Positions 13,247 through 37,059 of a stretch of DNA of 37,465 nucleotides are shown one piece after another (within the stretch, counting starts at the first letter, position 1; each line of letters begins with the position of its first letter). The DNA comes from Fragilaria crotonensis (taxonomy: Eukaryota > Bacillariophyta > Fragilariophyceae > Fragilariales > Fragilariaceae). The translations under genes and the position numbers were made by a program. The notes beneath the pieces were generated by a model, which did no database searches, had not been told where the DNA came from, and saw only the letters and a program-made list of their open reading frames with translations. The DNA is taken from positions 1 through 37,465 of the forward strand of contig JAKSYS010000617.1 in NCBI GenBank assembly GCA_022925895.1. Direction: 5' to 3'.

Positions 13247-13375
13247 CAGCCAGGACAACAGCCTGCTGCCGAGGCTATCCTCAAAGGGGAGTATTCAAAT
13301 AACGATCCGGACGACAACGTGTCTCTCCTTCTCCAACATCTGAAACAAACGGAAAGAATTGCAGCAATGCCCTAA
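13247..13375 (+). pseudogene. Short coding-like fragment cut by the left end of unit A
   Basis: A 42-codon open stretch (QPGQQPAAEAILKGEYSNND, then DPDDNVSLLLQHLKQTERIA) looks like genuine protein but has no start, and its stop TAA is supplied by the CCCTAAGG box that begins unit A. I do not recognise the family. It is preceded by TTTCACAG, a plausible 3' splice acceptor, so it may be an exon fragment of a gene interrupted by unit A. Confidence 0.4.
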
Positions 13376-13536
13376 GGGGGCGGGCTTTTATATCAATAAA
13401 TTATCATAAGGTATGGATACTTTTATTAGATACGTCGGGAGTGATTTTTGTACGTCGGGAGGGACGTTTTTGTGCGTCGAGAGGGATCCCACAGTATTGA
13501 TTCCTACGTTGGACGCTCGATTTTGTACGTCGGGAG
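13370..13536 (+). repeat. Unit A left end: CCCTAAGG box, AT scaffold, iterons
   Basis: It opens with CCCTAAGGGGGCGGG and then an AT-rich scaffold ending CTTTTATTAGA. Iterons of the form TACGTCGGGAG lie at 13431, 13451, 13473 (TGCGTCGAGAG), 13505 (TACGTTGGACG, degenerate) and 13526. Start-to-start steps are 20, 22, 32 and 21 bp, close to two or three helical turns. The same architecture with different iterons precedes B, C and D. Role inferred: recombinase/replication binding site, or promoter of the recombinase-helicase gene. Confidence 0.75.
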
Positions 13537-13653
13537 TTACGACCAATCCAAGTAGAATTCGGTACTTTCGAAATTGGCGCGGCTTCCGACTGACTTTATT
13601 TCACAGGCACACAAACATCACGGCTCATCCATAACAAACTCATCATTCTCATC

Positions 13654-13722
13654 ATGCCATCATCAAGCACTCCTCCAATACAAATGGTTAACGGAATCAT
13701 CAGTCCTGTTGTTGCGTCTTAG
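13654..13722 (+). pseudogene. Truncated start of the unit A helicase gene
   Basis: The ATG at 13654 opens a 22-codon frame (MPSSSTPPIQMVNGIISPVV). It lies where the helicase gene starts in B and D (about 120-135 bp after the last iteron) and sits in the same CATCATC-rich leader. The zinc-finger region that should follow is absent; unit B begins 70 bp further on. I read this as the stump of a helicase gene removed by deletion or by insertion of B. Confidence 0.45.
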
Positions 13723-13793
13723 CATTAAACCTTCTACAGTACTTGAATGATTTGTCTTTGGCTGCCACTACTGCTTGGAGTACAAGCAGCACT

Positions 13794-13950
13794 CCCTAAG
13801 GGGGCGGGGTTCAAACTAGATAAATATTCCTCAGATATAAATATTTTTACTTGATACCACAGGAGCTATTTTATTTAGAGAAAAGTACCACAGGAGCCAA
13901 ATTTCTGCCATTGGAGCCGCTTTTCAAATAGGAAAATATACCATAGGAGC
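13794..13950 (+). repeat. Unit B left end: CCCTAAGG box, AT scaffold, iterons
   Basis: CCCTAAGGGGGCGGGGTTC is followed by AAACTAGATAAATATTCC and a scaffold ending TTTTTACTTGA. Iterons of the form TACCACAGGAGC lie at 13855, 13886, 13906 (TGCCATTGGAGC) and 13939 (TACCATAGGAGC). Steps are 31, 20 and 33 bp. The scaffold is clearly homologous to those of C and D, while the iteron sequence is specific to this unit. Confidence 0.8.
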
Positions 13951-14069
13951 CACAGGACACCCCCGTAAGCTCCAGTAATGTTTAAATTTAAAAGTAACAC
14001 ATGGTCTGTGCTCTTGGAACATCACTGAATCACCACTTTTACAAAACAAATCATCAAACTGATCGCACC

Positions 14070-15398
14070 ATGACATCATCCAACACATTCAATTGCATTG
14101 ACCATCATCTTTCATCCATTCGAGAACTATTTTCCTTCTCTCCATTTGGTCTTCGCTGCCTTCAAAGCAACAACTGTGCAACAGTTGAGTTGGACAAGAG
14201 ATGCATCTGCCGCCACTTGAAAAAACATGGCTTGGACAGTAGGGTTTCGACAGTCCGTTCTCTCCTTGAAGAATATAAAAAGGAACTACTTCATGCAAAG
14301 GCTTTGGGAAGTATCGATCCGTATCGGAGCGACAGCAAAACCTATGCTGGATTTTCTTGTGTGTGTGGTCAATCCTTTGTAAAGATTGGAAATGCAAATC
14401 GACACTGCAAGACTGTGGGTTGTGATTCTTCAAAACTACAGAAAGTTGATCTCATCAAGCTTTGCTGCGGCAGGTATGTGACTCATGCTAAAGTCACTTC
14501 ATTTTTCAACGAATCACCACACAATTCAAAACAGCAATTTGATTATTGTGAGGCAAGAGCTGTGCTTTTTCCTATTCTTCCAAAAAGGGAAAAACAGGAT
14601 CATACGTACACACATATGTTTACACCCCTTATTCATGGATGCGGTGGTGGCAAACAATTTGTCCAGAAGATAAAATCCGACTTTTCTTCGATCCATTCAT
14701 CACCGTGCTCATCAACTGAGTTCTTGTTGGTTCAAATCCACAAGCATGCTGAGGATTGGCTCAAGTTTGTGCAAAAAAATATATTGATGGTTCCTGACAA
14801 TCTCCGCGCTGGACGTCAAACATTTGAAGGTGGTGAAATAGAAGAGATATCACATCGTTGTACCTACACAATGCAACACTATCCACGGAGTTTGCTTCCA
14901 GAGTTGAAAAGCTTTTATCCTTTTCTTACAGACGAGGTCTCTTTGCATCGAGAGGCTTTGACACAATCAATGCCTTTGCAGTGCCCTACTTTTTGAAGGA
15001 CTTGTTGCTTGAAGTCCCTCAATTGGTGGCATCTCTTCCCTTCGTTGCAGAGTTCTGTTTAATGTTTGCTTTCCGAGTCTCAACCAATGGTTCAGAAATC
15101 AACATGATCTCTTGTGACACAGTGTCCTCTGTCTTCTCAAAGATCTCATCAGTTCTGAAGGCAGCCGTTTGCTCCGTTATCTGTTCATTTTCCAACCAGT
15201 CATTTACAATTTTTGGTCCTGCACTTATCAAATCAGTACGTGAATCACCAGTGATTCACATTTTGTCACCGATGGTTCGTCAAATTCGTGAAATGCATCA
15301 TCGCATGCCTAAAAGGAGAAAGACAACACTTGATACGGTTGGCAACATTATGGTTGATCAATATTCTTTCTTATTTGATGACTGGTCTCGAATCGTCA
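14070..15398 (+). pseudogene. Unit B recombinase-helicase protein, N-terminal third only
   Basis: The start at 14070 (MTSSNTFNC) matches the leader position in D. It encodes the paired zinc-finger (OrsD-like) region: FSPFGLRCLQSNNC...HLKKHG, then YAGFSCVCGQSF...NRHCKTVGCD and LIKLCCGRYV, followed by EKQDHTYTHMFTPLI. Near 14909 one A is missing from an A-run (compare KKLL in C and D), which shifts the frame. The homologous sequence continues in another frame (VAEFCLMFAFRVSTNG, ISCDTVSSVFSKISSVLKAA, SPMVRQIREMHHRMPKR) up to WSRIV at 15397. There homology stops abruptly and CMC-transposon sequence begins. The recombinase and helicase domains are absent, and I did not find the 3' half beyond the insertion, so it may be deleted. 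Confidence 0.8.
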
Positions 15399-15743
15399 TC
15401 ACAAGGTGGCGGTGGTTACTTGTAATTATTTTATTACGTTTAGTGTATAGATTTGTAACTTTTTGTTACATTTTGTACACTAAAAGTGTACACGTATGTT
15501 ATCTAGCACATTTATACCAAAAAAATATCAATTGCAATTTTTGTAGTATCTGAAGCTTTTTATGCTAGACGGTTTGACATCTACGGTGTTCTTTATATGT
15601 TCCGTCATTGTTACAGTTTAAACATTCTTGTGTACGGCATTGCTGTTTTTCTGTTTATGCCGGTGACACCATTTTTGTGCACCTCCCTTTTTGTTGGTAA
15701 CACCCCGCACCGTAAAAAGCATACTGTTTGTTTCCATTTCATC
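15399..15743 (+). other. Left terminal region of the CMC-type transposon, with hairpin
   Basis: Begins ATCACAAGGTGGCGGTGG where homology to the unit B helicase stops, so this is a fixed left boundary to within a few bases. A nested imperfect hairpin lies at 15439-15484: outer arms TTTAGTGTA / TACACTAAA, inner arms TGTAAC / GTTACA, loop of five T. CAC-initiated ends are usual for CACTA/CMC elements. I could not find the matching inverted right end. Confidence 0.5.
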
Positions 15744-18700
15744 ATGAGCTCTCGCAGTCAGCCAACTCGCGAAGGCTTTGCCTTTTCTCCAGAGAAGGAT
15801 CAATGCACTTACTGTGGTCGTGTTGTTGTTGCCGGCCCGATGGGCCTGTCGCGTCATCTAGCTAGAAACCCTGATTGTCAGTTAGAGTATTCAATGGAGC
15901 ACAACGCATCTCGTTGTCAACAGTCACCAACTGGATTATTGCACGACACTGGTAATAGGCAATCTGATGATGTCTATATTCACACCAACAATGGGTTTTA
16001 AATGGTTTCAATCCGTCACTTTCTGATGATCAAATTGCGCGTTGCCCTCGTGAAGAAGATTTTTCCATCAATGAGCCAGTCGATGACGATTTTGCAATTT
16101 CACATGACTATTCTTATGATGAGCACATCATTATTCCCCATGCCGAATGTGTTGTTCCCGAATCTTTCAACCTTCCTACTGTCGAATGTCCACCCATCGT
16201 GCCTGCTCTTCCAGCGTGTCAGCTAACCCAACCTGCAACCAATCTTGGCGCTGATGGTTGTGCAGACACTTCAATCCTTGATGCATACGTCGCTCGTTCC
16301 GAATCTCTCAATGATGGTCTCTCTCTTTCTTTGTTCTCTGTTGAGGAAAAGGTTCAGGTGGACTTACTACAAACTCTCAAGAGACTTCGTGCTCCAATGA
16401 TTGCCTATGACGAGATAATGAGGTGGGCTGTCAGGTCTTCTTTACAAGGACACATATTTCGTGATGTTCCACTTAGTTCACGAAAGACTGTTGTAGAAAA
16501 GCTCAAAGTTCGCGTGGATCTTGACTCTCTGCGCCCTGTCGTAAAGGAATTGTATCTTCCATATTCCAAGCGTTTTGTTGAGGTTGTGTACTTCAGTGCA
16601 CACGCCATCTTTGGCTCATTTCTTTCCTGCTCTGAACTCAACCAAGACCAGAATTACATATTCAACGACGAAAACAATCCGAACTGCAATCCTTTTGCAA
16701 AACCCAACGGTGCCATGATTTCAGATATCAACACAGGCAGGTGCTACCTCCGTACTTATGATCAATTAGTAAAGAACCCCGAAGACATGCTACTTCCCTG
16801 CATTTTAGCAATTGACAAGACAACCTGTGACATTGTGGCGGAGGGCGTTTGTCACTGGAACCCATTGTCATATCCTATGGATTGATGAAGCACGACATAC
16901 GCAAAACGCCACTGGCGATGCGTGTTCTCGGTTTTATCAATACCTCCCCAATCCACCAGCGAAATTCGGCACCTGTAAATCGACCTGTTCCTGTGGGCAC
17001 AGAACCGCTTCCCTCTAGTTATAAAACTAGAGATGTGTCGGCTGCTACTTGGCGCTTAAACGAGTACCATATGCAGATTGACTTCATTCTTCGTGAATCT
17101 GGATACCTTGATCTCCAGCATTCAGGGCTGAAATGGAACCTTCAATTTCGAGGCAAAACCTATCCTGTCATCCTCCAACCTTTCATTCCCTTCATAATTG
17201 GAGATACTGAAGGTCATGATAGTCTCTGCGGTCATTTCAAGTCTCGCACCGATAACGTTGCCCAGCTCTGCCGATCCTGCGAGTGCCCTACTATGCTTTG
17301 TGGGTATTCGAAGTCTCGCGATTTTGCCCTTCGTCGACCCCGCATCATCAACAAGCTTGTCCGGGACCAGGACATCCCCGCACTTAAGTCAATGTCTCAG
17401 CATTATCTGAAGAATGCTTTTGATAATGTACGATTTGGTCTTCACAATGATCGCGGCATATTTGGCGCTTGTCCAGGAGAGATCTTGCACTTAATTCTTA
17501 TCGGGTGGTTCAGGAATGTCATTGACTCATTCTTCATTCAGATTGGGAAGGAGAGCCTCAAAGCTCAACTGTACGACACACTTCTGCATGACATTAACAA
17601 ATGCCTTGGGCGGCAAAGTGATCGTGATGTTCCATCTACAAGCACTCAGAAAGGGTTTTCCAGCACCGCCAACATTCCTGGTCATGAGTACACTGGTTGT
17701 TTGTTTGTCATGCTTATCTCATTTTACACTTCTCGCTTTCAGGAGATATTTCGAAGTGCTCGCGCATCAAAGAAACAAGATGCACATGACAAAGCATTAT
17801 CCAACCCTGCTTGGGTGAATGATTGGAAGACTCTCCTTAGTTCCTTACTGGAATGGCATATGTGGTTGAAGCAACCAGAGATTCGTCGCACCTCTGTAGC
17901 TAAATCAGTGTACGCCACATCACGCCTGATGCGATTCCTCAAGTTCGTTGCCCCTCGTCTGTCAGGGGGTATGTTGAACAACACCATAAAGACCCATCTT
18001 GTTCTTCACATCCACGATGATGTTCTAAATTTTGGCGTCCCCGAAGTCATGAATAGTTCTTATTCTGAATCTGGTCACATAACCATCTGCAAGGACACCA
18101 CTCGAAACACGCAGAAGCGTTCGCAAACGTTCACTTTGCAGGCTGCCATGCGTTACGTGGAAAATCTTGCAATAGCTCGCAGCTTCTCAGCAATCCACAA
18201 TAGCACTGGTTGTGCCAAATCTCCATTGAATCCATTCCTGCTTGCAAGCTCGCTGGGAAGTTGTTTGTCATTTCGAAGGATGTCAATGGCAACCCTTATT
18301 GCCGTCAACCGCGCTGCAGTAACAAAGCACGCGACTCTCTCGCAGATGCGTTTCCTTTGGATGCTCATGTATTTGAGACTGTTGCAGCGTACTGTCTTCC
18401 AAATGTTGATCCCCAAATTGTGTACTGTTACACTGAGTATCATCCCAAGTCGGGAGGTCAGCTGTATCGTGCGCACCCAAACTACTATCATGGGAATGGG
18501 AAACCATGGTTCGATCATTTATTCGTCCAGTGGCGAGGAGAGGCTGGCAAGGTATTGTTACATCCAGCTCGCGTCCATGTTTTCATTGACTTACACAACG
18601 TCCTCCCACGTTCCATCATCACATTTCCCGAGTCAGAGCAAGTTGGTTATTTCACAAAACCAGGCTTTTATGCTGTCATTGAGTCTTACGATCCTGTCGA

Positions 18701-19220
18701 AGAGCCTTTTCCCAATGCTAAGGTCAATCCTAACGAGAAGTTGATGGATGCGGATTTCGATTTCTCAGTTTTCCGTAAATTCCGTCTAACGCTTCTTCGC
18801 AAGAGCAGCAAGCCCAAGCTGTTCTTAGTCAATGTTGATTCCATTGTGGGTCCTACCGTTGCAATTCCTGATGCCTTTGGCGATACCCCCATCCAAGTTA
18901 GCGGCCCATCCATTCCCAACATAGATTACATATTCTTGACGTTCCGCCAACATGAATGGGCACAGACATGGGAGTCGTTCATCATGCAGCAAGATCTTCG
19001 AGTCAATGGCCCCGGTGGGTACGAATCAAACGATAGCGACTACGATGAAGAGGGAGGTGATCCAGTCTTCATAAATGCCAATGCCAATGATGATAACGTC
19101 ATTTCCGCAGAAAGAGTTAAGAGGAAAGGAAGCACTGGGGCAAAAATGGCAGCCGCAAAGTTGGTAAATGCAGCACCAGGACCAGTAAGAATAAGAGGCA
19201 GAAACGGAAGTAGTTGTTGA
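15744..19220 (+). pseudogene. CMC-superfamily (CACTA/Plavaka-like) transposase, frameshifted
   Basis: DDE-type cut-and-paste transposase in four frame segments. From the ATG at 15744: a zinc finger (CTYCGRVVVAGPMGLSRHLA plus a terminal C, C-x2-C...H...C). After a shift near 15990: an acidic linker, then helical sequence leading to LLPCILAIDKTTCD (first catalytic Asp, about 16810). After a shift near 16850: HDIRKTPLAMRVLGFI, FIIGDTEGHDSLCGHF (second Asp), the zinc site CRSCECPT, and GACPGEILHLILIGWF (candidate catalytic Glu), about 17195-17510. After a shift near 18220: a C-terminal region with VFETVAAYCLPNVD, LYRAHPNYYHGNGKPWFDH and an acidic/basic tail to 19220. The order D...D...PGE with an inserted CxxC-type zinc site fits the CMC group; the exact family is not certain. 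It interrupts the unit B helicase gene. Each break needs only one base, so it is either a recent pseudogene or an intact gene with sequence errors. Confidence 0.75.
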
Positions 19221-19409
19221 ATACTACTTCACAATGTAACCTTACAGTTGTTCAGCGACGAAGCACCACCACCAAGAACACGAGACTTAATAAGTAGGTG
19301 GTGTTGGACACACCACAAAACCAGGTTTCTATGCTGTCGCTCATGGTGTAGTCCTTTGGTCTTGTTCTCAAAATGAGGAAAAGACAAACCAGAAGATGAA
19401 TGCCAATAC
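19221..19409. other. Intergenic with a remnant resembling the transposase C-terminus
   Basis: At about 19315-19345 the plus strand reads ACAAAACCAGGTTTCTATGC, closely matching 18656-18675 inside the transposase (ACAAAACCAGGCTTTTATGC, encoding TKPGFYA). This looks like a short fragment of a second copy of the transposase gene. The stretch also separates two convergent genes. Confidence 0.4.
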
Positions 19410-21997
19410 TTATGTTTTCCTGTTGACAATGAAACCGACCTTTCTTGGAATGGTGGGCAACTCAGTTGCTTGGAATTCAGACGCAAACGCTACATTGCTT
19501 TTGGAGAGCGTGTCTTGCCAAATGCCCCTATCAACAATCCGTTCACCGACAAGGTCTGCTCTGATTCCCTCATCGACACTAGAATCGCTGTCGTTACCAT
19601 CTTCATCGTCTGTTCCGTCATCAGAATCGCCACCTAAGGGAACTGACCCATCATCAGAAACAGAATTGTCAAGAGTGCTGGGAGATGACGCAGACGTACT
19701 GTCATTCTGCACTACCTTACTTCTCTGAAGAATCCGTTTGTGTTTTCGGATTTTTCGATCCATTCCAAAGGTAACGATTGAAGACTTTGCTGCAAAAAAG
19801 GTCCCATAAACATGGCAATTTTTCTCTCGCTGCATCATTGATGTACAGTGACGTATCAGTCGCCCATCCCAACTGATGAGAACTCCATGAGTGAGACGAA
19901 TTGCCATCCCATTGTAAACTTTACCAGTTCCACTCTTTTTTCCAAACACGTTAGGCAAAACAAAGTACCATTCCTTAGTTGAACCAGGGTTATCTTCCGT
20001 CCAAATACTAAAACCTTGTGAAGCGTCGTTCACATCATAATGAGAGGAATTTGACAGATCAACGCTGACATCCATGGAGTGGGAAACACGCCTGTAGCAA
20101 CCATCGCCCGCCATCCCCATTGTCGGAGGATGTCTGAATCATCCTCGATATCCTGCATGACACGAAGGACACCTGGGATAGTGATTGCTGCCAATTGAGC
20201 GGATGCCCAGACCGCCCGCGCCAATGCTGGCTGCTCCCAATCAGCTGAGGAAGTAACGTACTGAGTTCGCCGCCGCTTGTCAAGGTGGATACGAGTCCCG
20301 ATAGCGTACATACGGCCTAAATCACCATGACCACTACGCACGACAGCACCCTTGTTCGGCGACTTGAGGAGACTTGCTGCATGATTGTGGATCATGCACA
20401 GTAAACGTTGGGAAGCTGGGCCGATATGTGGTAGGTATCTGACCTGCACTAAAGAATCCCTAACAAGGGCTACCTTGTCGGCACGATCTGGATGGACAAT
20501 GTGCACAGAAACGTTGACATCGGTATCGCCACAGACCGCGGGATCAATGACCCAAACAGAATTGGGATCGATGTGTTTATGCAGAAAACCTGCAACATAG
20601 TGGCGACAACCCCTCCTGGCTGTTGTCCCGTTTATGTAGCCGTGAATGAACGCTCTACGACGCTCATCCACAGTCCAATCATGAGAACGATCCACACCAT
20701 GAATGAAATCAGGAGGCAGACGTGGAGCATCTTCATCGACGCATTGATGAACCTCGTAAACAGTCTTGTTTTGAGACCTGTCAAAAGAGGGCAACAACGG
20801 CTTTCCCAATTTGACAGGAATCACAAATGCATTGGATTGGCGCGAAACTTTCCACTTCCAGATGCATTCTGGGTTGCCGTCCCACAATCGTGTAACATAA
20901 CCACCGTGGGAAAAACGGTTGTCGCGGCTGCCATTCTTGACAATGCGTAGCCAGTTAATGTCCATGGGAACATGAGCATTCGCAACACCGACGTACTCCT
21001 TCCTGCGCTCACGGTGACAATAGAACATGCCAGCCTCTGGAAGTAACGCAAGGAAGGCACGAAAGCAAGTATCATGCTTTTCACCCTTCAGCATGTCGTC
21101 GTCAATCTTCATCTTGACGGGAAAGTCGACCGTGGCCTTCGTCGATGTCAAAACCCGAGCTATCTTTTTGCTGCGAGCCAAAACAGCATCCATCACCACA
21201 ATCTCAAGGATATGAGGCACGTCAATAGCGTGTTGCTGGAAGCGATCACTGTTCATGTGATCACACCTTTCCAAGGAAACATTGTCGTAGCCAAAAATAT
21301 CCATGAATGCTACATGAATATTGGCAACAAATGTCCTGCCAATCTTTGCACCTAATGGAATTACACTTGGTAGCACAGTCGGGTGACTGAGATGATCCCT
21401 TTCATGAAACTTGGCCTGATGACAGGTCAGACTTTTAACAAAGGACTCCGATAAATGCCTGGGTATGCACTTTGCCAGAACACTACCAGCCTGATTCCGG
21501 CTGCACCAATAATCGCGACGGTACGTCGGATGACGAGATATTGCTGAATAAACACGCGGATTCATATACCCAGCAATGATTTTGCGGGCCAACTCGCCTG
21601 GAAATGTACGTCCGCCAACAACGTTGACAACATTATATCGACGCCGTTGCACTGAAGCAGCAGTCACACCAGGTTTGGTATTGCCCTTCTTGCGTTTGCG
21701 ACACGAGGAGGACGGAGAAAACTTGATGCAAGTTGCAGAATGAGCAGAAGTGGCAGCTTCATTTCTGGGAATGTACTTGGGTTTGCGAGATAAAGGACGT
21801 GACTCCTCCGTACCATCGGGGACCTTTGCCTCGAAATGAATCGGGACAACCTCCTCAGTTCGTGTCTTCGATAAACAATTGCGCTGGCAAACGGACGGAG
21901 GGAACTTGTCGATAACCACGGCGGATGAGGCGCTGCAATTCTCATGAGAACACGACGTCGTGCCGCCGTCAATTGCCTTCTTGAGCGTGTCGTCCAT
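19410..21997 (-). pseudogene. Large protein with a C-terminal 2OG-Fe(II) dioxygenase-like domain
   Basis: The ATG at 21997 (MDDTLKKAI) opens a long frame to about 20100; a one-base loss near GGCGGGCGATGG (about 20100-20112) then shifts it into the frame ending at 19410. About 860 residues in all. The N-terminal ~600 residues are unrecognised, with a basic RKRKKG patch near residue 110. The C-terminal segment has YRRVSHSMDVSVDL, then NSSHYDVNDASQGF (metal-type H-x-D), KEWYFVLPN and ISWDGRLIRHCTSM (distal His), the layout of a double-stranded beta-helix dioxygenase. An acidic tail (DSDDGTDDEDGNDSDSS) follows. I have the impression of similar algal transposon-associated proteins but cannot name a family; TET/JBP kinship is possible but unproven. 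It converges on the CMC transposase, so it may be the second gene of that element, or of the unit B element. Confidence 0.55.
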
Positions 21998-22094
21998 GTC
22001 TGCAGCGTGTCCAATGGAATTGTGTCTCACTTACTGTCAATACCGTCAAAAATGAAATCCCTCTAACAGTGGCTAGGTTTGCCAAATCAAAGCA

Positions 22095-22870
22095 ATCTGG
22101 CTTCGGACTTCTTACTACTAGTTATTGAACTTGACGTCCCAGCCAATCAAGAAGTCAATGTCGTTGTCGTCGTGCTGATTCCTTCACGTGTAGTAGAAGT
22201 TGGCGTTGCAATACAAAGTCGACGTCACGATCGCCGTTCAGTACTTGTTCAATATAGTCAGTACGTTATCAAAATCAACTTCACTATCACAAATCTCGCC
22301 GCAACAGTGGATACGTACTGGATGGTACCCTATCACACAATTGCAGCAGAAGAAATGGATGGTAAAAATCCAAGTCGACGTCCGTATCGAACAATATCGT
22401 CGAAGTCTAAAGCGGAGATCGGGCTTCGGACTTTTTACTTCTCGCTATCAAATTGGACTTCTTTCTTCTCGCTATCAAATTAAACGTCCCAGCCAGTCAA
22501 TCAAAAAGTCAATGCTGTTGTCGTCGCGCCGATCCCTTCACGTGTACTAGAAGTTGGCGTTGCAATCCAAAGTCAATGTCACAATCGCCGTTCAGTACTT
22601 GTTGGATAGTCAGTATGTTATCAAAATCAACTTCACTATCACAAGTCTCGCCGCAACAGTGGATACGTACTGGATGGTACCCTATCACACAATAGCAGCA
22701 GAAGAAATGGAAGGTAAAATCCAAGTCGACGTCCGTATTAAACAATATCGTCGAAGTCTAAAACGGTGATCGAGCTTCGGACTTCTATCTTCTCGCTATC
22801 AAATTTGACGTCCCAGCCAATAAAAAATCAACACTTTGATTGTGAACACGTACTGGATGGTACCCTGTTA
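22095..22870. repeat. Tandem repeats of about 323-351 bp, third copy truncated
   Basis: Copies start with the CTTCGGACTT string at 22101, 22424 and 22775. Each contains GACGTCCCAGCC (or a variant), CGCCGTTCAGTACTTGTT, CGCCGCAACAGTGGATACGT and ACTGGATGGTACCCTATCAC. Copy 2 is longer because CTTCTCGCTATCAAATT is itself duplicated. Copy 3 is shortened, keeping only the start and the ACTGGATGGTACCCT region. They lie just upstream of the dioxygenase-like gene (start 21997) and may be promoter or subterminal repeats of its element. Confidence 0.8.
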
Positions 22871-22881
22871 CACAATCAAAG

Positions 22882-23187
22882 ATGATTGATATAAAAATGA
22901 AGAAGCTTGGAAGGAGGCAGGATGGAGACAATCAAGTTTCAATCAGGGAGCTTGTACAACAAATTATGGAAGGAGCACAAAAACTGCGGGAAAGTACATC
23001 AAAAGCAACGTGGAAAAACTCCAGTACTATCATAAGAACAGGAATTGCACTTAGGAGACGTCGCAAGACTTGGACATGGGACTACAATTTTGGGGAAAAG
23101 CACATGCATTACACCGTAATTGAAACAATCTTAATAGTATCTGCAACATATACCGGTATTAATTACACATATACGGAGCATAATTAG
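22882..23187 (+). CDS. Hypothetical basic protein, 101 aa
   Basis: ATG at 22882 (MIDIKMKKLGRRQDGDNQ), stop at 23187. The first ~70 residues are charged and helical-looking, with two basic patches (KKLGRRQ, RRRRKTW); the rest is hydrophobic/aromatic. No recognised domain. It follows directly on the tandem repeats and may be chance coding. Confidence 0.25.
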   Translation: MIDIKMKKLGRRQDGDNQVSIRELVQQIMEGAQKLRESTSKATWKNSSTIIRTGIALRRRRKTWTWDYNFGEKHMHYTVIETILIVSATYTGINYTYTEHN

Positions 23188-23574
23188 TTAGTGAATATAG
23201 TACATGTAGCACTACTGTAATGCACATACCTAGTACTTAATGAGTATGACGCATGTACTAGAACATGCGTTACACAACGGCAAACTACTTTAGTAAGTGT
23301 AGCACTACTGTCGTATACATACCAAGTATTTAACTACGAAGTTTGCTGCGCGGCTTCGAAACCAGTCTGTTGTCGCTTCCGTCCTCGTTTGGGATTGCCC
23401 GATGCCCGCCCTTGGACTTAGTTTTGATGCATGAGTGTGCTGCTACAGATAATGCTGAGTCTGGTGTTTTGGCTTTGCCAGGGACTTTGTCCCGGCGGTA
23501 ATTCAGCTCCAACTCCCCCGGAGTTTGGTCGGTCCAGCCATTGAACCTTCTTTTGACCGACTGACCATTCTCCG
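23188..23574. other. Intergenic with a short direct repeat
   Basis: TGTAGCACTACTGT occurs near 23205 and again near 23298, each followed by a CATACC.AGTA.TTAA string, so this is a diverged ~93-bp direct repeat. The rest (23340-23574) may belong to the retroelement fragment to the right, but no domain is legible. Confidence 0.4.
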
Positions 23575-23823
23575 TCAGTGATGGATGTGAATCTTGCTGG
23601 TTTTGGTTCGGGACCCGTCGGGTAGCAACGTCGTTCTCTCTCGGGTGAGTGGGTCGTCCACGCTGGAGCGTCTTGAGTCCGCTGCATCGAAGAAGGTATC
23701 GTTCCTGATCATGTCGCCGCTCAGTTGGTTGGTCCATTCGAGGACCTGTGGCCGAATGTATACAAGGAATGCGTCTGACGACCACCGTCCCAGTATCATG
23801 ATCTTCGCAACTGGATGGTTCAT
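23575..23823 (-). pseudogene. C-terminal fragment of a tyrosine recombinase (DIRS-like)
   Basis: From the ATG at 23823 it reads MNHPVAKIMILGRWSSDAFL, then VYIRPQVLEWTNQLSGDM. The GRWSS...YIR pattern is the C-terminal box of tyrosine recombinases of DIRS-type retroelements: the Trp takes the place of the His of the R-H-R-H/W-Y set and the Tyr is the nucleophile. The upstream part (Arg/Lys boxes) is missing because unit C begins at 23834, so C apparently inserted into or joined this gene. It is unrelated in sequence to the recombinase region of the helicase genes. The tail (DSRRSSVDDPLTRER) is unrecognised. Confidence 0.55.
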
Positions 23824-23833
23824 GAGGAATAGG

Positions 23834-23979
23834 CCCTAAGGAAAAGGGGTTCAAACTGGATTAAAAATCCTCAAGTATAGATGCTTTTACTTGCTACGTC
23901 CGGAGTGGTGATTTTACGTCCGGAGGGGGATTTTTCACGTCCGGAGGGATTTTTTACTTAGGAATTATCACGTCCGGAG
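23834..23979 (+). repeat. Unit C left end: CCCTAAGG box, AT scaffold, iterons
   Basis: CCCTAAGGAAAAGGGGTTC is followed by AAACTGGATTAAAAATCCTC and AAGTATAGATGCTTTTACTT. Iterons of the form TACGTCCGGAG lie at 23895, 23915, 23936 (CACGTCCGGAG) and 23969 (CACGTCCGGAG). Steps are 20, 21 and 33 bp. The iteron differs from that of unit A at one position (C for G). Confidence 0.8.
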
Positions 23980-26767
23980 GTGGAAGACTCTATGAACCCT
24001 TCCTCCTAAAAAATATGGCGCAACAATCCGCCCGTATGTATAACCTGGTATCCTTGTTTTTGACTCTGTGGTGCATTTTTGGAGATATGCACTCGGCAAT
24101 TGTGCCTTCATCACGGCTGTTATCATATCGTATTGTTGACATGGTCACCACTGAAGATTTGCCGAATGCTAGAAGTGAAATGGTAGCACCTGCACTTTAC
24201 CGCCACACTTCTGTTACAGGCCAAGGAATTTTTTCCTTCTCTCCCTTTGGACTTGGATGTCGACTCTGCCCAAAAATTGTGTCTATCCGCCTCAATGAAA
24301 GATGCATTCGTGACCATCTTAAAAGACATGGACTGGAAAGGAGGTATGCCACAATCCCTTCCCTTTTTTGATACTCTCAGAATGAAAGTGGAAGAATTAC
24401 AGGCTACAGGAGCCATCGAGCCCTATCGAATCGACCAAAGTACTAACAATGGATTTTCATGCCTTTGTGGTCAAGTTTTTCCGAGAAAGGATAATGCGCA
24501 CCGCCACTGCCAAAGATTGGGTTGTGACCCCGCTAAATTGCAGAAAGTTGATTTAATCAAGCTCTGTTGTGGTCGATACGTGTCACATGCTCAAGTCGCA
24601 TCTCTTTTCCAGGAAAGTTTACCTCGCATCAGGGAACAATTCCATTACTCTGACTCGAGAGCTACTCTTCTTCCCTTTCTCCCACTAAGAGAAAAACAAG
24701 ATCACACCTACACACATATGTACACTCCCCTAATTACTGGATGTGGCGGTAAACAATTCATTGCAAAGATCAAAACTGACTTTGTCTTGATCCATTCACC
24801 ACCAAGTCCATGCGGAGAGTTACTTCTTACAAAAATCCACACGCAAGCTGAAGAATGGCTTCTGAACTTTGCGCAGAAGAATATATTGATGGTACCAGGG
24901 AATCTCCGTGCTGGGCTACAGACATTGCAAGCAGGTGAAGTTGATGATGTGTCACAAGGAAAAACCTACAGAATGCAGCATGACCCGACAAGTCTACTTT
25001 CAGAACTCAAGAAACTCCTCTCCTTTGCCTACAGACGAGGACTTTTTGCATCCAAGGGTTTTGATGACCGTGATGATTTTGCTGTTGCCTATTTTTTGAA
25101 AGATCTTCTGCTGGAAGTTCCCCCATCGATTGCCTTTCATCCCTTTGCCGTGGAGTTTTGTCTTATGTTCCCATTCCGAGTGAGAACTGATGGTTCTCAA
25201 ATTTCCATGATCTCCTGTGACACTGTGTCCTCGTTGTTTTCCAAAGTTTCTTCCCTTCTGAAGGCAGCGGTTTGCTCGGTCATCTGCTCCTTCTCCAAAA
25301 ACACCTACACAGTAATGGGGAATTTGCTTGTAGAATCCGTGCGAAAGGCTCCAGTTATCCATATTTTGTCACCAATGGTTCGACAGGTAAAGGAAATGTA
25401 CAATCGATTACCAAAGAGGCAGAAAACAATACTTCACCCTGACGGAAATATCATTGTTGATCAATTTTCTTTCTCATTCGACATCTGGTCACAGTTTGTT
25501 CCCTTGACTGTTTCTCTGCTGCGGGAGACACTGACTCATCTGGCAATCGGTGAATGGTGGGAGCCTGTTGTTGATCCAGCAACCATCATCAAAGTCAGCG
25601 TGGAAGACATCACTGCCGACATTTCATTGGTAGGTGTTTCTCCATTGTGGAATCAAGGTGCATGTTTGTCACTCGATCAGTTGGACAATTTTTCTGCCTT
25701 GTTGAAAATGGCATTTCATGGTTTTGGCGGTGGATCAGCAAGAGAGACAGAGTTGGCGGAGCCCACTATGTTTCATTGTCTGTACTGCAATGATACAGTA
25801 TACTATTCGATGACCTCACTGAAGGGTTATACAAGTTCCTCTCGTCATCACTTTCTGAAAGTGGAGCGAAAACTCCCTCCTGTGATTGCTCGATATTATA
25901 TCTTGTATCGATCACTTGTCAAATCAAATGTCACTCTCTTCACTGCAACTGGTACTTCCTTGATGTTTCCGACAAGAGTAACATCATCATGTGTTGGAAT
26001 CCCAAATGTCATACGCAATATTTTCAATTTGGATTCATTACCAAACATGCGACAGGTACGACAGCTCTGGGCTGGTGTTTCAAATATGGTAACAGGTGAT
26101 CATGGGAACAGGAATAATTTTTTGCGTGCATCTGCCAGTTCTGTGGGAGCATCCAAATTTGGCCACTCTGTGAAGACTCACGAGAATGTTTATTCAAGTG
26201 AGAGATTTGGTGGTGCAGAAGCACATTTCAATTCGTACCATTTTGCAATCGGCGACACTTCATATGAGATGTCACATCTCCAGTCCACCACAATTTCCTT
26301 GGGTGATATTCGGGGTGCCATGTCTCTTCGCTATCCGAAATCCATCTCATCAGATGGCCACCTCTACCTAACTGTGAAACAAAAGGCTTTAGTGGAATTT
26401 GGGTACGGGCACCAGTCACCTGGAAAACACCAGCATTGTTTTGGTCTTCTCGCACCTGGTGAGGGAAAGTCCGAATGTTATATCATTCCATCCATTGCCC
26501 GAAGGCTTGGAAATCAGAGGCCCCGAATGATTATTCATGTATCACCATACAATTTTTTGGCTGCGTATCAATTCAAGAATGCAACTGCTGCAATCAAGAA
26601 AGTGGGTTTTGCTTCAAAACAAAACGAAAACTAATTATCGGGTTTTCACCGCGTGACAACCGCACGGATGTCACAGTGTACCCCGCTCCAGCAGGCTAGG
26701 CCGGCGAGAGCTCATTCATTAACTATAACCTAAAACATGCATCCATGGAAGTGAAAATAGCCATTGG

Positions 26768-27658
26768 TCAGGTGTAGGGAGGATGGCTGAAGTGGGGGAA
26801 GATCCTGTGAAGAGTGGAGCCCTGCAGAGTAGTTGCATACTGGCTTGCAGTATGACCATACACAGTAGGGGGAAGGCTGGTAGAACAGTGGTTGGTAGGA
26901 CGGTAGTTGGTCGGACAGTAGTTGGTCGGATAGTAGTTGGAAAAGCAGTAGTCAGTAGGACGGTAGTCGGTAGAAAAGTGGACGGTAGGAAAGTGGACGG
27001 TAGGAAAGTGGACGGTAGGAAAGTGGACGGTAGGAAAGTGGACGGTAGGAAAGTGGACGGTAGGAAAGTGGACGGTAGGAAAGTGGACGGTAGGAAAGTG
27101 GACGGTAGAAAAGTGGATGGTAGGAGGGTGAACGGTGGAAAAATGGACGGTAGAACAGTAGTCGGTGGAACAATAGTTGGTAGAGCAATAGTCAGTAGGA
27201 CGGTAGTCAGTTGTACAGTAGTCGGTAGAACGGCAGTCGGTTGAACGGTACGATGAGCAGTAGTCGGTAGAACGGTAGTCGGTAGAACGGTAGTGGGAAG
27301 AACAGTAGTCGGAAGAACAGTAGTCGGAAGAACAGTAATCGGTAGAACGGTAGTCGGTAGAATAGTAGTTGGTAGGACGGTAGTCAGTTGAACGGTAGTC
27401 AGTAGTCGGAAGGTGGTGGTTCACAGAGAGCGCGGAAATTTGTTTGATTGTATTATCAGCTGCGTGGAATGCATACCAGGTACGTACGTAGGAATTGAAT
27501 TTTGGTGCTGAAAAAATGTCATCAAGCCTTTCAAGTTTCTCATCTCCCTGCTGCTCTTTGGAGTTCATTTTTTGAAGGACATCATTGTGCTGGCCAGTAG
27601 GACAGGAATCAATGGGCGAATCGAAACGAGGGGGTTCGGGGGCCCCCTCTTTGCTCAT
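26768..27658 (-). CDS. Repetitive open frame over the minisatellite
   Basis: Minus-strand frame from the ATG at 27658 ([18 protein letters not shown]) with a unique N-terminal ~75 residues and then about 44 five-residue repeats of the TDYRS / TVHFP type. Since the DNA repeat is 15 bp, any frame without a stop in one unit stays open, so length is no evidence of coding; a long frame also runs on the plus strand. The unique N-terminus ([19 protein letters not shown]) is moderately protein-like. It could be a gene of the inserted element or chance. Confidence 0.3.
26870..27415. repeat. 15-bp minisatellite, about 36 units
   Basis: Units of the form GGTAGGAAAGTGGAC / GGTAGGACGGTAGTC, 15 bp long. 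The central block (about 26975-27110) consists of nearly identical AAAGTGGACGGTAGG units; the flanks are diverged and include a few indels. The pattern suggests recent local amplification in an older array. Unit number is approximate. Confidence 0.85.
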
Positions 27659-29378
27659 CTTTGTGTTGCGCTCTAAGTCTCGTAGAAACAATACCAAGAA
27701 ACGGACGACGGACAGGAAGGTAGTACAAAAACTCGGGACGAAAAAAGTGTGTGGGTTTTGCTTCAAGCATTCCTACGTGCCTCCTCACAGGTCACGACAT
27801 CAATGTGGGATTACTTTCAGAGGAGCTCTCGAGTGTTGATCACCTCCCGAGTCTTCTTTTTCTCAACCTGGATGCTTTGTATAATCTATTTACTTTTCAT
27901 TTCGAGACTTTCAAATCATGGGCAGCAGAAATTGACAAGATTGTTATTGACGAGATACATACTTTTTTGACAGAGCTATGTTTTCGAGAGAAATATCAGG
28001 TTTATTGGAGACTTCCTGCTCTCGGAATTCCAATTGTGGCCTTGAGTGGATCTTTACCTACATTTGTTCTTCCGAAACTGGCCAAGCGCTTGTGTTTATC
28101 TGTCTCGAAAGACATGATAGATATCAATGTAATTCATGGTGGGGACATTGTCGGAAACTTCCCAAAAGGATTTCGAATCAAATTTTCTATAAGTGAAAAC
28201 TATGTCGAGAAGGTGGCCTCTTTTGTTGTTCATCGGTTGGGAGCCCAGCCAGTTGTTGGTGCAGCACATGTTTTTGTCACGGACAAGAAAGATGGAAAGC
28301 ATCTCCTCCAACTGCTCGAATCAAGAGCATACAAATGCATGTTCATCTCTTCTGATACCTGTCCGATGGAATTAGAGTTGGCGGCATCACAATGGGGAGA
28401 AGGAAAATTGGATGTATTGATTTCAACTTCGATTGCATTGGTTGGAAATGAAAATCCATTATGCAGATTTGTTGCCTGTGCTGGGTACCTGTTTGATGCG
28501 ATGCAGGTTGTTCAAGCCTTTGGTCGCCTCCGACAGTACATGCGAAGTAGTTCTGGACAAATTCTTTTTGTGGCACCAAACGCCTTGCCAGAGTACAGGA
28601 TAGAAGATGACGAGCATCGATTCACAAGGCTTCTGAACGAGAACCTCTTATCTCACCAAGACCTTGCCATTTTCAGAGCGACGATGACTTCTGATGGTGT
28701 CCGGGACTGGATAATGAATGGTGTTGCGAGGGACAAAGACTGTGCCTTGAAAATTCTATCGCAATCATTTGGAAAACTCAGGGATGGTTGCGGGGCATGT
28801 CCTTTCTGTCTCTCCAGTCCCACGAGAAGTGTCCAGACTGAAGCCATCCATCGCATGCAAATAGAAAAAAACAACGAGAAATCCACTGAACGTGTCCTTC
28901 AAAAGCTTGCATTGAAATGTCTGGTATGTCACAAGACTACTTGTCGCGGAATACCACTCTTAAAAGGAAAGGGAAGCAAATCCTTGCCCGAGAATAAGGA
29001 CTGCTGCTTTTCCTGGAGAAATTGTTACCAATGTGGTGTGAGCCAGCATGATCGAAGCCATTGTTTTGATAAGACTTACCTGAACAACATAGCCTGTTGT
29101 GAATGTTGGGTCTACAAAAAGGTGCCCGGTGCAACACATCACGAGACAACAGACTGTGAAATCAAAGGAAGGCTTCGAAGATTGCTGTCCTATAATTTTA
29201 CCAGCTTCAAGGTCAAAGGTACATTCAAGGAATATATCGAGGGCATTTACACCTCTTCGGCAAGCTTTTGCCAGTTCATGTCCAGTATGGAGGTAAAGTT
29301 TATGCAAACACAGATTAATTAAATTAAATTCTCGTTCCAAGAGGATTCCACTCCTGAAAGGCAGACACATTCCAAAAT

Positions 29379-30092
29379 TCACGCACGATCTGATTGGAGG
29401 GCGGGAAGAAATGTATTAAGAAGTGGCTGTTCCCTGATCAATCCCTGCATAATGAAACATGGTTCAGCACGAACCAGAAAGAAGACTCGAGCATCAACCA
29501 CTTCACCTCCAAGGCCCACGACCTCACCATTTTTGTTGTCAATGGTGGCCATGACGTAGTATATTCCATCATACCGATAGACAACTTTCTTCCCATTCGG
29601 ACAAGGGAAGTATTTGCCTTTGTCTCGGTTTCCATTTGATGATCTGAATACTCGAACAGGTTTCTGAGTCAAAAAACTCTTCAACAGTGTTAAAGGATGG
29701 GAATTGTCACTCGCAACATATGTAAGGAAATGATATTGATCATCATCGCGAGGATCAGATAATGCCTTCACAATAATGGAGGGACATCCAACTTTCATAT
29801 TCCCTGCAATGTTACCTTGTCGAGCAACATGTGCATTGCATTTCAACAAATGCTCACGGGAGTAACATTCTCCTTCTTGCAATATCTCAGCCATATTGCC
29901 AAACACATATTCATACGGCTTACTCGGAGAAACATCTTCCACACGCCAACCATTATCGTGACAAATTTTTGACTCACCATTCCTGAAAATAATTGCCATC
30001 CGCTGGTTGTTGGTGGATTCTTTTGTTTTCATCATTGCGTGAACAAAGGATTTCTGAACAAGCTCATCCATGGTGTAGACATCACCTTTCAT
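29379..30092 (-). CDS. SRA-YDG domain protein (modified-cytosine reader type), unit C cargo
   Basis: ATG at 30092 (MKGDVYTMDELVQKSF), 237 residues; the frame extends upstream with protein-like sequence (FQPAWSPEDGDQQLE) to a TGA near 30166, so the true start may be further 5' or spliced. From about residue 60 it follows the SRA order: GECYSREHLLKCNAHVA, then NIAGNMKVGCPSIIVK, DDQYHFLTYVASDN, QKPVRVFRSSN and VVYRYDGIYYV with the YDG signature at residues 174-176, ending VVDARVFFLVRAEP. SRA domains (UHRF1, SUVH proteins) bind 5-methyl- or hydroxymethylcytosine by base flipping, using a pocket around YDG. No RING, SET or nuclease domain is fused. It converges on the unit C helicase with a 56-bp gap and its 5' end abuts the left end of unit D. 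Inferred job: recognising the methylation state of the element or its target; not demonstrated. Confidence 0.8.
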   Translation of the reverse strand: MKGDVYTMDELVQKSFVHAMMKTKESTNNQRMAIIFRNGESKICHDNGWRVEDVSPSKPYEYVFGNMAEILQEGECYSREHLLKCNAHVARQGNIAGNMKVGCPSIIVKALSDPRDDDQYHFLTYVASDNSHPLTLLKSFLTQKPVRVFRSSNGNRDKGKYFPCPNGKKVVYRYDGIYYVMATIDNKNGEVVGLGGEVVDARVFFLVRAEPCFIMQGLIREQPLLNTFLPALQSDRA

Positions 30093-30201
30093 GGGAAATA
30101 ACTCCAATTGTTGATCTCCATCTTCTGGACTCCATGCAGGCTGGAACCGATTGTTCTCGCATCATCAGCTGGACCATCCACTGTGAGTGATGCCACTGTA
30201 T

Positions 30202-30359
30202 CCTAAGGAGAAGGCCCTGTTTCTAGATAAAAAGTCTTCAAGTATGAATGCTTTTACTTGATACCACTGGTGGTGTTTTTATTTAGGATCACATACCACC
30301 GGTGTAGATTTTTGTACCACTGGTGGGCCTTTTTAACTAGCAATATATACCACTGGTGG
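30202..30359 (+). repeat. Unit D left end: CCTAAGG box, AT scaffold, iterons
   Basis: CCTAAGGAGAAGG, then TTTCTAGATAAAAAGTCTTC and AAGTATGAATGCTTTTACTT. Iterons of the form TACCACTGGTGG lie at 30262, 30294 (TACCACCGGTGT), 30315 and 30348. Steps are 32, 21 and 33 bp, nearly the spacing of unit B. Each iteron is itself close to palindromic. The last iteron ends about 135 bp before the helicase start codon. Confidence 0.85.
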
Positions 30360-30493: not shown

Positions 30494-33400
30494 ATGTCTG
30501 CAAAGCCAAATGCAACTATTGAGGTTGAACCAGTAATGCTTTTCACTTTCTCTCCCTTTGGCCTATCCTGTCAGCAATGTACAAACAATTTCACTATTCA
30601 GTTGGATACAAGATGCATCTCCCGTCATCTGAAAAAACATGGTATGGACAGCAGCATTGCTACTGCTCGTTCTCTTTTCAACACATTCCAAAAAGAACTT
30701 GAAGTTGTGAAGGCGTCTGGCACAATGGACCAATACCGAAGTGATATGAAAACTTACAATGGTTATTCCTGCCTCTGCGGTCAAAATTTCAATTCAAGAA
30801 AGGATAGTGCACGTCGACATTGCACAAGGTCAGGTTGTGATCCTTCTAAATTGCTGAAGGTCAACCTCATCAAGCTCTGTTGTGGTCGATATGTATCAGA
30901 ATCTCAAGTTAAGTTTTTTTTTGAGGATCAACCACCGCGTATCAGGGAGCAATTCGATTACTGCCAGGCAAGAGCGGCTTTGCTTCCCTTCCTTCCACCA
31001 AGGGAAAAGCAAGATCATACGTACACTCACATGTACACCCCCATCATTGCTGGTTGTGCTCGTCCACAAGACTTTGAAAGAAAGATTAAAAATGACTTCA
31101 TTTCTATCCATTCTCCACCGAGTCAAACTCTTGAGTCAGTTCTGATCAAAATTCATAACCAAGCTGAAAATTGGCTATTAAATTTTGCACAGAAGAATAT
31201 TTTGATGGTGCCAGGGAATCTCCGAGCTGGACTTCAAAATTTTGATCGTGTTGAAGTCAATGATGTTTCACAAGGAAAGACCTATACAATGCAGCATGAT
31301 CCAACCAGCTTACTACCTGAATTGAAGAAGCTTCTATCCTATTCGTTCCGCAAGGGCCTATTTGCATCAAGTGGTTTTGATGAAAGTGATCAATTTGCAG
31401 TTGCATATTTTTTGAAGGATTTTTTGCTTGAAGTTCCACCATCAGTTGCCACGCATCCCTTTGTGGTGGAATTCTGTCTCATATTTCCTTTTCGTGTATC
31501 CGCTCAGGAATCAAAAATCTCTCTGATATCCTGTGACACGGTGTCGTCTTTATTCGCCAAGGTAGCATCGCTTCTGAAAGCAGCAGTATGCTCCGTCATC
31601 TGTTCTTTTTCAGAGCAGTCATCCACTCATTCTGGAGATTTGCTTGTGTCATCTGTTCGCAAGGCTCCCGTACTACATATTCTTTCACCAATGGTTCGAC
31701 AAATAAGAGAAATGCACGAACGACTACCAAAAAGGCAAAAAACTATGATTGACTCAGGTGGAAATATCATTGTTGACCAACACGCATTTCCATACGACAT
31801 CTGGTCACGCATAGTTCCCACAGCTGTCACCTTGATGCGGGAGTCATTAACTCATTTGGCTGATGGTTCCTGGTGGGAGCCTGTGGTTGATCCATCAACA
31901 TTTGTCAGAATCCGTGTCGATGATGACACGGCAGACATTTCATTGCTCGATGTCACTCCCTGTTGGAATGTTGGACTTTCTTTCCTTGTTGATCAGTTGG
32001 ATTGTTTTATGGCACTGTTGAAGATGGCATTTCATGGTTTTGGAGGAGGATCGGCAAGGATGAGAGAGTTGACAGAACCGACTATGTTCCACTGCGTGTA
32101 CAGCAATGATGCTGTTTATTACTCCATGACGTCACTGAAGGGTTTTAACAGTTCTTCTCGTCGTCGGTTCAAGAAAGTCGAGCGAAAACTCCCTCCTGTT
32201 ATCACTCGATACTTTTTGTTGTATCGATCTCTCGTCAATGCGAATGTAAATCTTTTTGAGCAATCCGATTCCCTTTTGATTTTTCCAAAGCGGAGAACAC
32301 CTTCAAATTTTGGTGTTCCAAATGTGATCAGGAATATTTTCAATTTGGATTCATCACCCGATATGCGGCAGATTCGACAGTTTTGGGCTTGTGTATCGAA
32401 TTTCGTTACTGGTGATGATGAGGATGGAAAGGCCTTTTTGACGTCCACGGCAAGCTCTGTGGCGGCATCAAAAATGGGGCACTCCAAGATGACACATGGT
32501 GTTGCTTATTCAAGCAAACGACTCGGGGCTGAGGAATCACACTTCAATGCTTATCACTTCGCCATCGGGGACACATCATACGAGATGTCAAAAATCCAAT
32601 TGTGCAAACTCTCATTGGGTGATATTCGGATGGCAATGTCACTTCGGTACCCGAAGGCTATTTCATCAGATGGTCACAACTATCTTTCATCTCAACAGAA
32701 GGAACTTGTTGAGTTTGGATATGGTTGTCACGATGACTCAATGCAGATGCAACAACATTGCTTTGGACTTCTTCCCCCTGGTGAAGGAAAATCTGAAGTT
32801 TTCATTATTCCCACCATTGCAAGACGGATCGGCAATCAAAGAAGCAAAATGATAATTCATGTGTCGCCCTATAATTTTTTGGCCCTCTACCAATCCAATA
32901 ATGCAACCACTGCTTTTGACAAAGTCGGCTTTGGAACAAGCATTTCCACTTGCATCTTCACTGGCGGGGACATCAATGTTGGATTGTTACCCGATGAGCT
33001 TTCCAACAAGGAGGATCTCCCAAACATTCTCTTTCTCAACCTGGACGCTCTCTTCAACTTGTTCACGTTTCATTTTGAAACATTCAAGTCATGGATTGAC
33101 GTCATGGATAAGATTGTTATTGATGAGGTCCATACTTTTCTTACAGAATTAAGCTTTCGGGAGAAGTATCAGGTTTATTGGAGACTTGCTGTTCTTGGGA
33201 TTCCGATTGTGGCATTGAGTGGATCAGTTCCTTTGTTCATTCTTTCTAAATTTGCAATGCGACTTTGTTTGTCTCGTGACAAACAGATGAATGACATCAA
33301 GATTATTCACGGCGGGGTCCTTTTTGGACATTTTCCTCATGGATTCCGAATCAAATTTTCAGTCACACCGAGATACATACACCAAGTTGCCAGTTTTGCT

Positions 33401-34512: not shown

Positions 34513-34783
34513 GGCACTGGAATGTTTTGTTCGAGTAGCCCCGCGGAGATTTACTGTCCGTCAACCGGGGAACGCGGGGCACTGGAATGTTTTGTTCGAG
34601 TAGCCCCGCGGAGATTTACTGTCCGTCAACCGGGGAACGCGGGGCACTGGAATGTCTTGTTCGAGTAGCCCCGCAGAGATTTACTGTCCGTCAACCGTGT
34701 AACGCGGGGCACTGGAATGTTTTGTTCGAGTAGCCCAGCAGAGATTTACTGTCCGTCAACCGGGGAACGCGGGGCACTGGAAT
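34513..34783. repeat. 65-bp tandem repeats with internal hairpin, four units
   Basis: Units start with GGCACTGGAATG at 34513, 34578, 34643 and 34708, with a partial fifth at 34773; the period is exactly 65 bp. Within a unit, GCCCCGCG and CGCGGGGC form an 8-bp perfect inverted repeat around ~27 bases; units 3 and 4 carry substitutions in one arm. The array lies between the convergent unit D helicase and dioxygenase genes, so a termination/insulation role is conceivable. Confidence 0.9.
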
Positions 34784-36127: not shown

Positions 36128-36604
36128 TTCGCTACAAGAGTACAAACATTAAAGGGCAACACAGAAGCGATGCAGGATTAATGAGAAAACACAAAAAAAG
36201 TGATTCCAAACAGGTGCATTTGCTTTCTTGTTAAGAATATTTGTAAGTAATAAATTTTTAGTAAGACTTAATTTGCTAACAATTTAATTAGTATCCAAAT
36301 TCAATACACATACATGAAAGCTAAGTGTTTCATGTGTTAACAAGTCATGCAAAGGTATATTTAACAATGATGGGAGTTGAAAGATGCCGGTACTTAGATT
36401 ATTATTGACTTGCATTTAATTGTAATAAATAACTAAATGGTTGGATTAATATATTCTACACTTTATTTAATTAGCCTTAACTAGAAGTCTAAGATTCCTT
36501 AATTAAAGGAATCATGGACAAATCTGTGCGTTGAAAATAAAAACACGATTCATTTCGTGTAACAAAACTGACGTTTTGCGATGACGTTTATATACAATTA
36601 ACGT
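36128..36604. other. AT-rich region upstream of the dioxygenase gene
   Basis: About 480 bp rich in AAT/TTA strings, including the palindromic CTTAATTAAAG near 36497. It must hold the promoter of the minus-strand dioxygenase gene, and possibly the right end of unit D, but no CCTAAGG box or iteron copy is visible here. Confidence 0.5.
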
Positions 36605-37050: not shown

Positions 37051-37059
37051 CAAACGTAT

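Follow-up and report, generated by a model that had tools for sequence, protein, structure and literature searches.

Introduction

HeT-A/TART and MoTeR are telomere-attached retroelements, AcademH and KolobokH are DDE elements, and Helitrons combine an HUH Rep protein with a PIF1-type helicase and insert between A and T. The arm-type sites of lambda integrase and plasmid iterons are direct repeats that are phased, lie close to a site of recombination or an origin and are bound by a separate DNA-binding domain, and in the zinc-finger code Arg at helix position +6 reads G and Asn at +3 reads A. Helicase genes of the telomere-linked or Y' kind are, to our knowledge, without a recombinase of their own. 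Here we describe elements of the diatom Fragilaria crotonensis that have a left end starting with CCTAAGG and carrying iterons and, when complete, a gene encoding a fusion protein with a helicase domain. They were examined in contig JAKSYS010000617.1 (C578), analysed over its entire 37,465 bases (the window), and in the assembly (62.1 Mb in 881 contigs). We consider it probable that they are one-ended DNA elements living at, and spreading by replacing, the ends of diatom chromosomes.

Features of these elements recur separately in several described systems. Cryptons, including CryptonS of oomycetes and a diatom, share with them a tyrosine recombinase, a short end core and stramenopile hosts (PMC3212892); Y' elements, arranged in tandem in yeast, and the RecQ helicases of Ustilago, Magnaporthe, Metarhizium and Agaricus share helicase genes beside telomeres (PMC7473861, PMC13177704); Terminons are likewise attached to chromosome ends on one side only, become truncated and form head-to-tail arrays (PMC6431247); and the DNA transposons AcademH and KolobokH share DEAD and Helicase_C domains (PMC10799480).

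Results

Four of the five copies of CCTAAGG in the window open the left ends of units U1 to U4 (Table 1), where the motif is followed by a scaffold and, as the initial annotation had claimed from the letters of the stretch, by four or five iterons beginning about 60 bp in; template search found no iterons at the fifth copy, at 19633. U1 has five iterons, two of them degenerate, and U2, U3 and U4 have four each. With degenerate units allowed and the count begun at the base that precedes CCTAAGG, all four ends have their first iteron at exactly +61. Exact matches to the iteron template (TAC, two variable positions, C, one variable position, GG, A/T, G) number 11 in the window, against 1.2 expected, and lie without exception within the four left ends; 0 of 100 shuffles reached 11. 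The claim that each unit carries its own version of this shared template held, iteron identity being 0.88 within and 0.65 between units, which none of 20,000 label shuffles matched. Spacings within the window (20, 22, 32 and 21 bp in U1; 31, 20 and 33 in U2; 20, 21 and 33 in U3; 32, 21 and 33 in U4) agree with the proposed 20-22 or 31-33 bp, which would align the iterons along a single helical face, and form two layouts, of 2-2-3(-2) and of 3-2-3 helical turns. Coherence with a 10.5-bp phase was R = 0.86, with p ~1e-5 assuming 13 independent intervals, which they are not; the phasing statistics overstate independence because layouts are inherited by descent.

Across the assembly, a pattern search returned 77 left ends, against 3 for a reversed control, and a looser search of those parts of it that were read returned 70, a set that differs from the 77. 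At 52 of the 63 left ends among these 70 with at least one scored iteron, the first iteron lies at +61. The layouts of 23 hand-chosen representatives, several of them of one family, were +61/+92/+113/+146 (3-2-3) or +61/+82/+103/+135, sometimes with +156 (2-2-3-2); 62 of their 73 intervals measured 20-22 or 30-33 bp and the others 9, 12, 14, 19, 34, 38, 53 or 54 bp, with one 12-bp step each in families J and O. Spacing was not random in the other copies. The starts that follow CCTAAGG, namely GGGCGG, AAAAGG and AGAAGG, are interchangeable and paired with different scaffolds, as if exchange had taken place within the first 14 bp.

The protein called a helicase in the initial annotation proved to be a fusion of two zinc fingers, a tyrosine recombinase and a superfamily 2 (SF2) helicase. 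Its recombinase catalytic domain has a Cre/XerH fold, with R, K, R, H and Y in invariant alignment columns and R or T at the first His position, a mapping inferred from aligned ranges, not from superposition. Pfam matches to the fusion protein included no Rep family, PIF1 or reverse transcriptase, a sequence search of solved structures gave no match, and no relative was confirmed in the viral contigs and prokaryote genome contigs searched. At the level of sequence, each element has a left end, complete elements add the fusion gene, and the U4 type adds distal open reading frames (ORFs) and a satellite.

The elements appear one-ended. Uninterrupted copies of the target were found for 26 left ends (two share one target) and start at the join with CC in 22, 17 of these being CCT; the rest start with TCG, TTG, GCT or TAG, and the TTG target becomes CCT if the C run is aligned differently. 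Only 0-5 bp of sequence are shared at the joins. The empty site of U3, GAATAGGC^CCATTGCGG, lies within a repeat on contigs C333 and C270, and that of U4, CATAT^CCTCACC, in a relative (87% identical, contig C410) of the SRA gene that U4 cuts. Neither target right half is present in the window, and the right half was found downstream of none of the 31 left ends with a donor. No trace of it was seen for 21 of these, over 4-13 kb in 13 cases and over just 1.4-2.3 kb in 8, while the other ten tests matched diverged homologues or the donor copy itself and decide nothing. Past the joins on C588 and on the telomere-capped contig C592, where about 20 unmatched bases precede the left end, nothing matched the distal portion of the U4-type segment. 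Truncated segments occur on C121 and C847; where the one on C121 ends, reading of the DNA showed no left end. Because a matching right end was not found, the earlier likening of these ends to transposon ends does not stand in its ordinary sense. On C271 both target halves flank about 0.84 kb, a case that was rejected because another kind of insertion, accompanied by a 15-bp duplication, is present there. The target of one left end on C592 (locus L084, 15500-16700) is a 16-bp minisatellite containing CCT, and three left ends are spaced 200-650 bp apart at this locus.

All left ends of a contig point one way: mixed strands were seen on none of the 15 contigs with several ends, which hold 63 of the 77. 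A telomere search for TTAGGG/TTAGGGG with three exact patterns found repeats capping four contigs, each at the left (C23, C592, C754 and C490), and the elements on all four point to the telomere. On C23, an internally deleted relative of U1, reduced to the left end and the last ~57 residues of the protein, stands between other DNA and the telomere. On C754, the relative of the satellite at the right end of the window continues into the telomere; such relatives also occupy the left ends of C411, C413 and C490, all four contigs having elements that point to the satellite, and another is present on C44, where the element search found none. The mean left-end position fell in the outward half of 21 of 29 contigs (p 0.024), a weaker test. 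Interstitial telomere repeats were seen on C411 and on C427, a contig without a detected element, whose arrays at 70402-70628 and 97108-97150 lie in opposite orientations.

Some of these results are weaker or go the other way. The innermost left end lies in the outward half of just 17 of the 29 contigs (p 0.46), the mean position is inward on C271, C273, C300, C521, C665, C754, C783 and C847, and, of the 31 tests for the right half, just 13 combined the lack of a match with more than 4 kb searched. The best surviving alternative, which we nevertheless regard as unlikely, is an ordinary two-ended Crypton-like transposon; a circle would insert into CC(T) by way of a short core, and right ends would since have disappeared by subtelomeric deletion and exchange or would lie beyond the DNA examined. 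It would account for the recombinase domain and for the short CC/CCT core common to the joins, it has a precedent in diatom Cryptons with terminal repeats of 4-6 bp (PMC3212892), and for many left ends the downstream DNA examined is shorter than a full element; it would not predict, however, that a junction with the target right half was found for none of the 31 left ends tested and in the window for neither U3 nor U4, nor that elements keep one strand on 15 contigs and face every telomere-capped end.

If the elements specify their own ends, as the initial annotation had supposed from a conserved frame with a diverging core, iterons should vary with the DNA-binding protein. The N-terminal module was readable for 19 of the 25 left ends tried, and ten families were kept with one left end each (A, B, C, D, E, F, H, I, J and K); nine near-duplicates were dropped, including Q, H2, E2, E3, B2 and By, some of them unreadable at finger 1 through frame breaks. 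Families G, L, O and P were unreadable, as was finger 2 of M and N. Identity over both fingers correlated with iteron similarity in the ten families (Mantel r 0.54, p 0.0015; partial r 0.56, p 0.002, with residues 121-240 and 301-390 removed), finger 2 alone giving r 0.45 (p 0.0095) and finger 1 alone a weak r of 0.24 (p 0.08). Iteron similarity did not correlate with identity of the linker (r -0.01) or with that over residues 121-240 (r 0.10) and 301-390 (r 0.12), and the postulated co-evolution is thus supported for the fingers and not for their surroundings.

Among 159 variable columns, residue 44, at helix position +6 of finger 1, was the only one to predict iteron base 4 perfectly: Arg occurs with C (A, D, K), Asp or Glu with G (B, C, E, J) and Ile or Asn with A (F, H, I). 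Of 5,000 shuffles, 101 yielded some perfect column and 18 yielded one among the canonical contact positions. The dropped family Q, close to F, agrees with Leu44, and so do two families read later, both with G at base 4, namely N (RD) and M (GE in a single copy; its two other copies have frame breaks in the region of residue 44). Iteron base 10 is predicted by six columns, including residue 105 (finger 2, +3), with Asn accompanying A and Ser accompanying T, a weak prediction because T occurs in only two families. Element-specific recognition is therefore supported in that iterons track the fingers of their own element; that each protein would recognize only its own end goes beyond these data, because families B, C, E and J have similar fingers and near-identical GTC iterons, and judging from these sequences they may cross-recognize one another.

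The zinc-finger module is, by sequence comparison, exchanged between otherwise similar proteins. Over aa 301-720 the 14 closest pairs share 80-97% identity, yet over aa 1-240 these pairs share just 57-71%, and the nearest neighbour by aa 1-180 differs from those by three other stretches of the protein in 28, 27 and 28 of 29 proteins, whereas the other stretches disagree among themselves in 16, 15 and 11 of 29. Trees of the two parts were mutually rejected by Kishino-Hasegawa (KH), Shimodaira-Hasegawa (SH) and approximately unbiased (AU) tests with 5,000 replicates, which is few for AU. Overall identities of both parts still correlate at 0.76, which points to an incomplete or an old exchange. 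At C121:83993 and C23:1482, one and the same flank meets two different element families at an identical base, as if two left ends had been exchanged.

These results bear on a second alternative, which we find doubtful, in which passive subtelomeric repeats resembling Y' or telomere-linked helicases are spread solely by host break-induced replication, the recombinase being a relic and the CC(T) joins a product of microhomology repair. The subtelomeric place, the satellite, the helicase, near-identical distal segments across contigs and joins with so little shared sequence would all fit; against it, the catalytic residues occupy invariant columns, iterons follow the fingers, and most joins fall at a CC target although left ends were searched by CCTAAGG. 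We give no greater credence to a third, that the iterons are merely operators of the fusion gene, serving autorepression by the zinc-finger protein, the ends being used by something else. The iterons do lie between end and start codon, and the distance to the latter is similar in U4 (292 bp) and U1 (~283 bp, by eye), so that a fixed iteron place does not tell operators from end recognition; against operators alone stands the constant distance to the DNA end (+61 at 52 of 63 left ends), and an operator role would not exclude end recognition. Replication-origin iterons of a plasmid would share the helical phasing and the AT-rich scaffold, and are very improbable given Pfam matches to DEAD and Helicase_C, with no Rep family, and the chromosomal location of the arrays. 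A Helitron was rejected as a candidate on the DEAD/Helicase_C domains without PIF1 or Rep match and on the CC(T) targets.

Table 1 Features of the window (positions in contig C578).
Feature	Position	Strand	Remarks
U1 left end	13371..13536	+	CCTAAGG, scaffold, five iterons at 13431, 13451, 13473, 13505, 13526; TACGTCGGGAG class
U1 remnant	13371..13794	+	Left end up to start codon (by eye), terminated by U2 left end
U2 left end	13795..13949	+	Four iterons at 13855, 13886, 13906, 13939; TACCACAGGAG class
U2 zinc-finger/recombinase/helicase gene	14058..15397	+	In two frames, interrupted at 15397; tblastn
U3 left end	23835..23979	+	Four iterons at 23895, 23915, 23936, 23969; TACGTCCGGAG class
U3 fusion gene	24141..29322	+	Pieces 24141-24368, 24364-26616, 27751-29319, minisatellite between
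SAD/SRA-domain gene	29379-30107	-	Cut by U4; Pfam E 1e-11; uncut relative on contig C410
U4 left end	30202..30358	+	Four iterons at 30262, 30294, 30315, 30348; TACCACTGGTG class
U4 zinc-finger/tyrosine-recombinase/SF2-helicase fusion gene	30494..34473	+	Frame break ~34190 upstream of Cys-rich C-terminus
Zinc finger 1	30569..30640	+	aa 26-49, C-x2-C-x15-H-x3-H; iteron base 4 predicted by residue 44, base 5 by residues 43 and 44 together
Zinc finger 2	30770..30838	+	aa 93-115, C2HC type; Ser/Asn105 matches iteron base 10 T/A
Tyrosine-recombinase catalytic domain	31736..32533	+	~aa 415-680; R522, K549, R628, H663, Y672
SF2 helicase core	32750..33694	+	DEAD aa 753-911, Helicase_C aa 980-1067; Pfam, Helicase_C under curated cut-off in U4
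Two ORFs (34861-35523, 35549-36145)	34861..36145	-	Distal segment common to other contigs
Subtelomeric satellite	36600..37465		Relative (~70% identical) adjoins TTAGGG(G) telomere on contig C754

The SRA gene was rejected as cargo of the elements because its relative on C410 continues unbroken across the U4 insertion point; a query of 29323-30201 matched itself and one partial relative only. The U2 gene is disrupted by an insertion at 15398-19300, whose ORFs at 16199-18744 are reminiscent of a Plavaka-type transposase, the first with a weak Pfam match (E 0.095). Inside the U3 gene lies a 15-nt minisatellite (26842-27420) with an open reading frame on the opposite strand, and directly after the U4 gene stand 65-bp GC-rich tandem repeats (34513-34837), hairpin-capable by eye. 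Elsewhere in the window, Gag-like and integrase-side ORFs on the minus strand (1286-4027 and 261-944, the second with a weak Pfam match to SH3_retrovirus) resemble a copia-type retrotransposon, identical 300-nt direct copies occur at 5516-5815 and 6049-6348, and a tandem duplication of roughly 350 bp at 22095-22876.

Discussion

On balance, and a little less confidently than for their one-ended nature and location, we favor single-ended mobile DNA in which a zinc-finger-guided recombinase with a helicase moves the chromosome tip through CC(T), modules being swapped for recognition of the own end. The chemistry, binding and copying steps of this mechanism are inferred from sequence. The zinc fingers would bind the iterons of their own element from the same side of the helix, in the manner of arm-type sites, and so position the recombinase at the terminal CCTAAGG, where it would exchange or nick strands between the CC(T) of the end and a CC(T) elsewhere. 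The DNA from the left end through the telomere would thereby be installed at the target and the old chromosome end replaced; if a left end and a CC(T) site on linear chromosomes underwent one tyrosine-recombinase crossover, the tips would be exchanged. Transfer may proceed by copying, akin to break-induced replication and aided by the helicase, rather than by simple reciprocal exchange. Distal segments are 100% identical on several contigs, for 1.95 kb in the case of C269 and for 1.76 kb in that of C551, which suggests that copying fits as well as or better than reciprocal exchange, although subtelomeric gene conversion could be an alternative source of such identity. Repeated rounds would leave same-strand arrays of left-end stumps facing the telomere, and swaps of the zinc-finger module would keep element specificities diverging.

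Among the open-licence papers searched, no listed title or abstract start describes such an element. If the proposal is correct, it would be a DNA-based counterpart of the telomere-attached retroelements, with a recombinase that has a two- to three-base target and rewrites chromosome ends in a single step, bringing genes there; subtelomeric helicase genes would gain a possible mobile origin, and the families would supply naturally varied zinc-finger/site pairs with which to test recognition.

The elements differ from each of the systems they resemble. From Cryptons they are set apart by a recombinase fused to zinc fingers and to the DEAD/Helicase_C helicase (PMC3212892 has 0 occurrences of the word 'helicase'), by phased element-specific iterons and by a single, telomere-directed end, the left CCTAAGG being present while no right-end direct repeat was found and a right junction was seen in 0 of 31 cases within the DNA examined. 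Like Y' elements and the fungal helicases, they are subtelomeric and lie beside telomere repeats, but they have a recombinase of their own, a CC(T) target and a defined left end bearing iterons; the main text of the Agaricus paper contains neither 'recombinase' nor 'tyrosine'. Unlike Terminons, they are DNA elements with recombinase and helicase, attached by the 5' end and with no reverse transcriptase among the Pfam matches, and in place of the transposases of AcademH and KolobokH they have a tyrosine recombinase. In contrast to lambda arm-type sites and plasmid iterons, the fingers and iterons of these elements co-vary between families of one genome.

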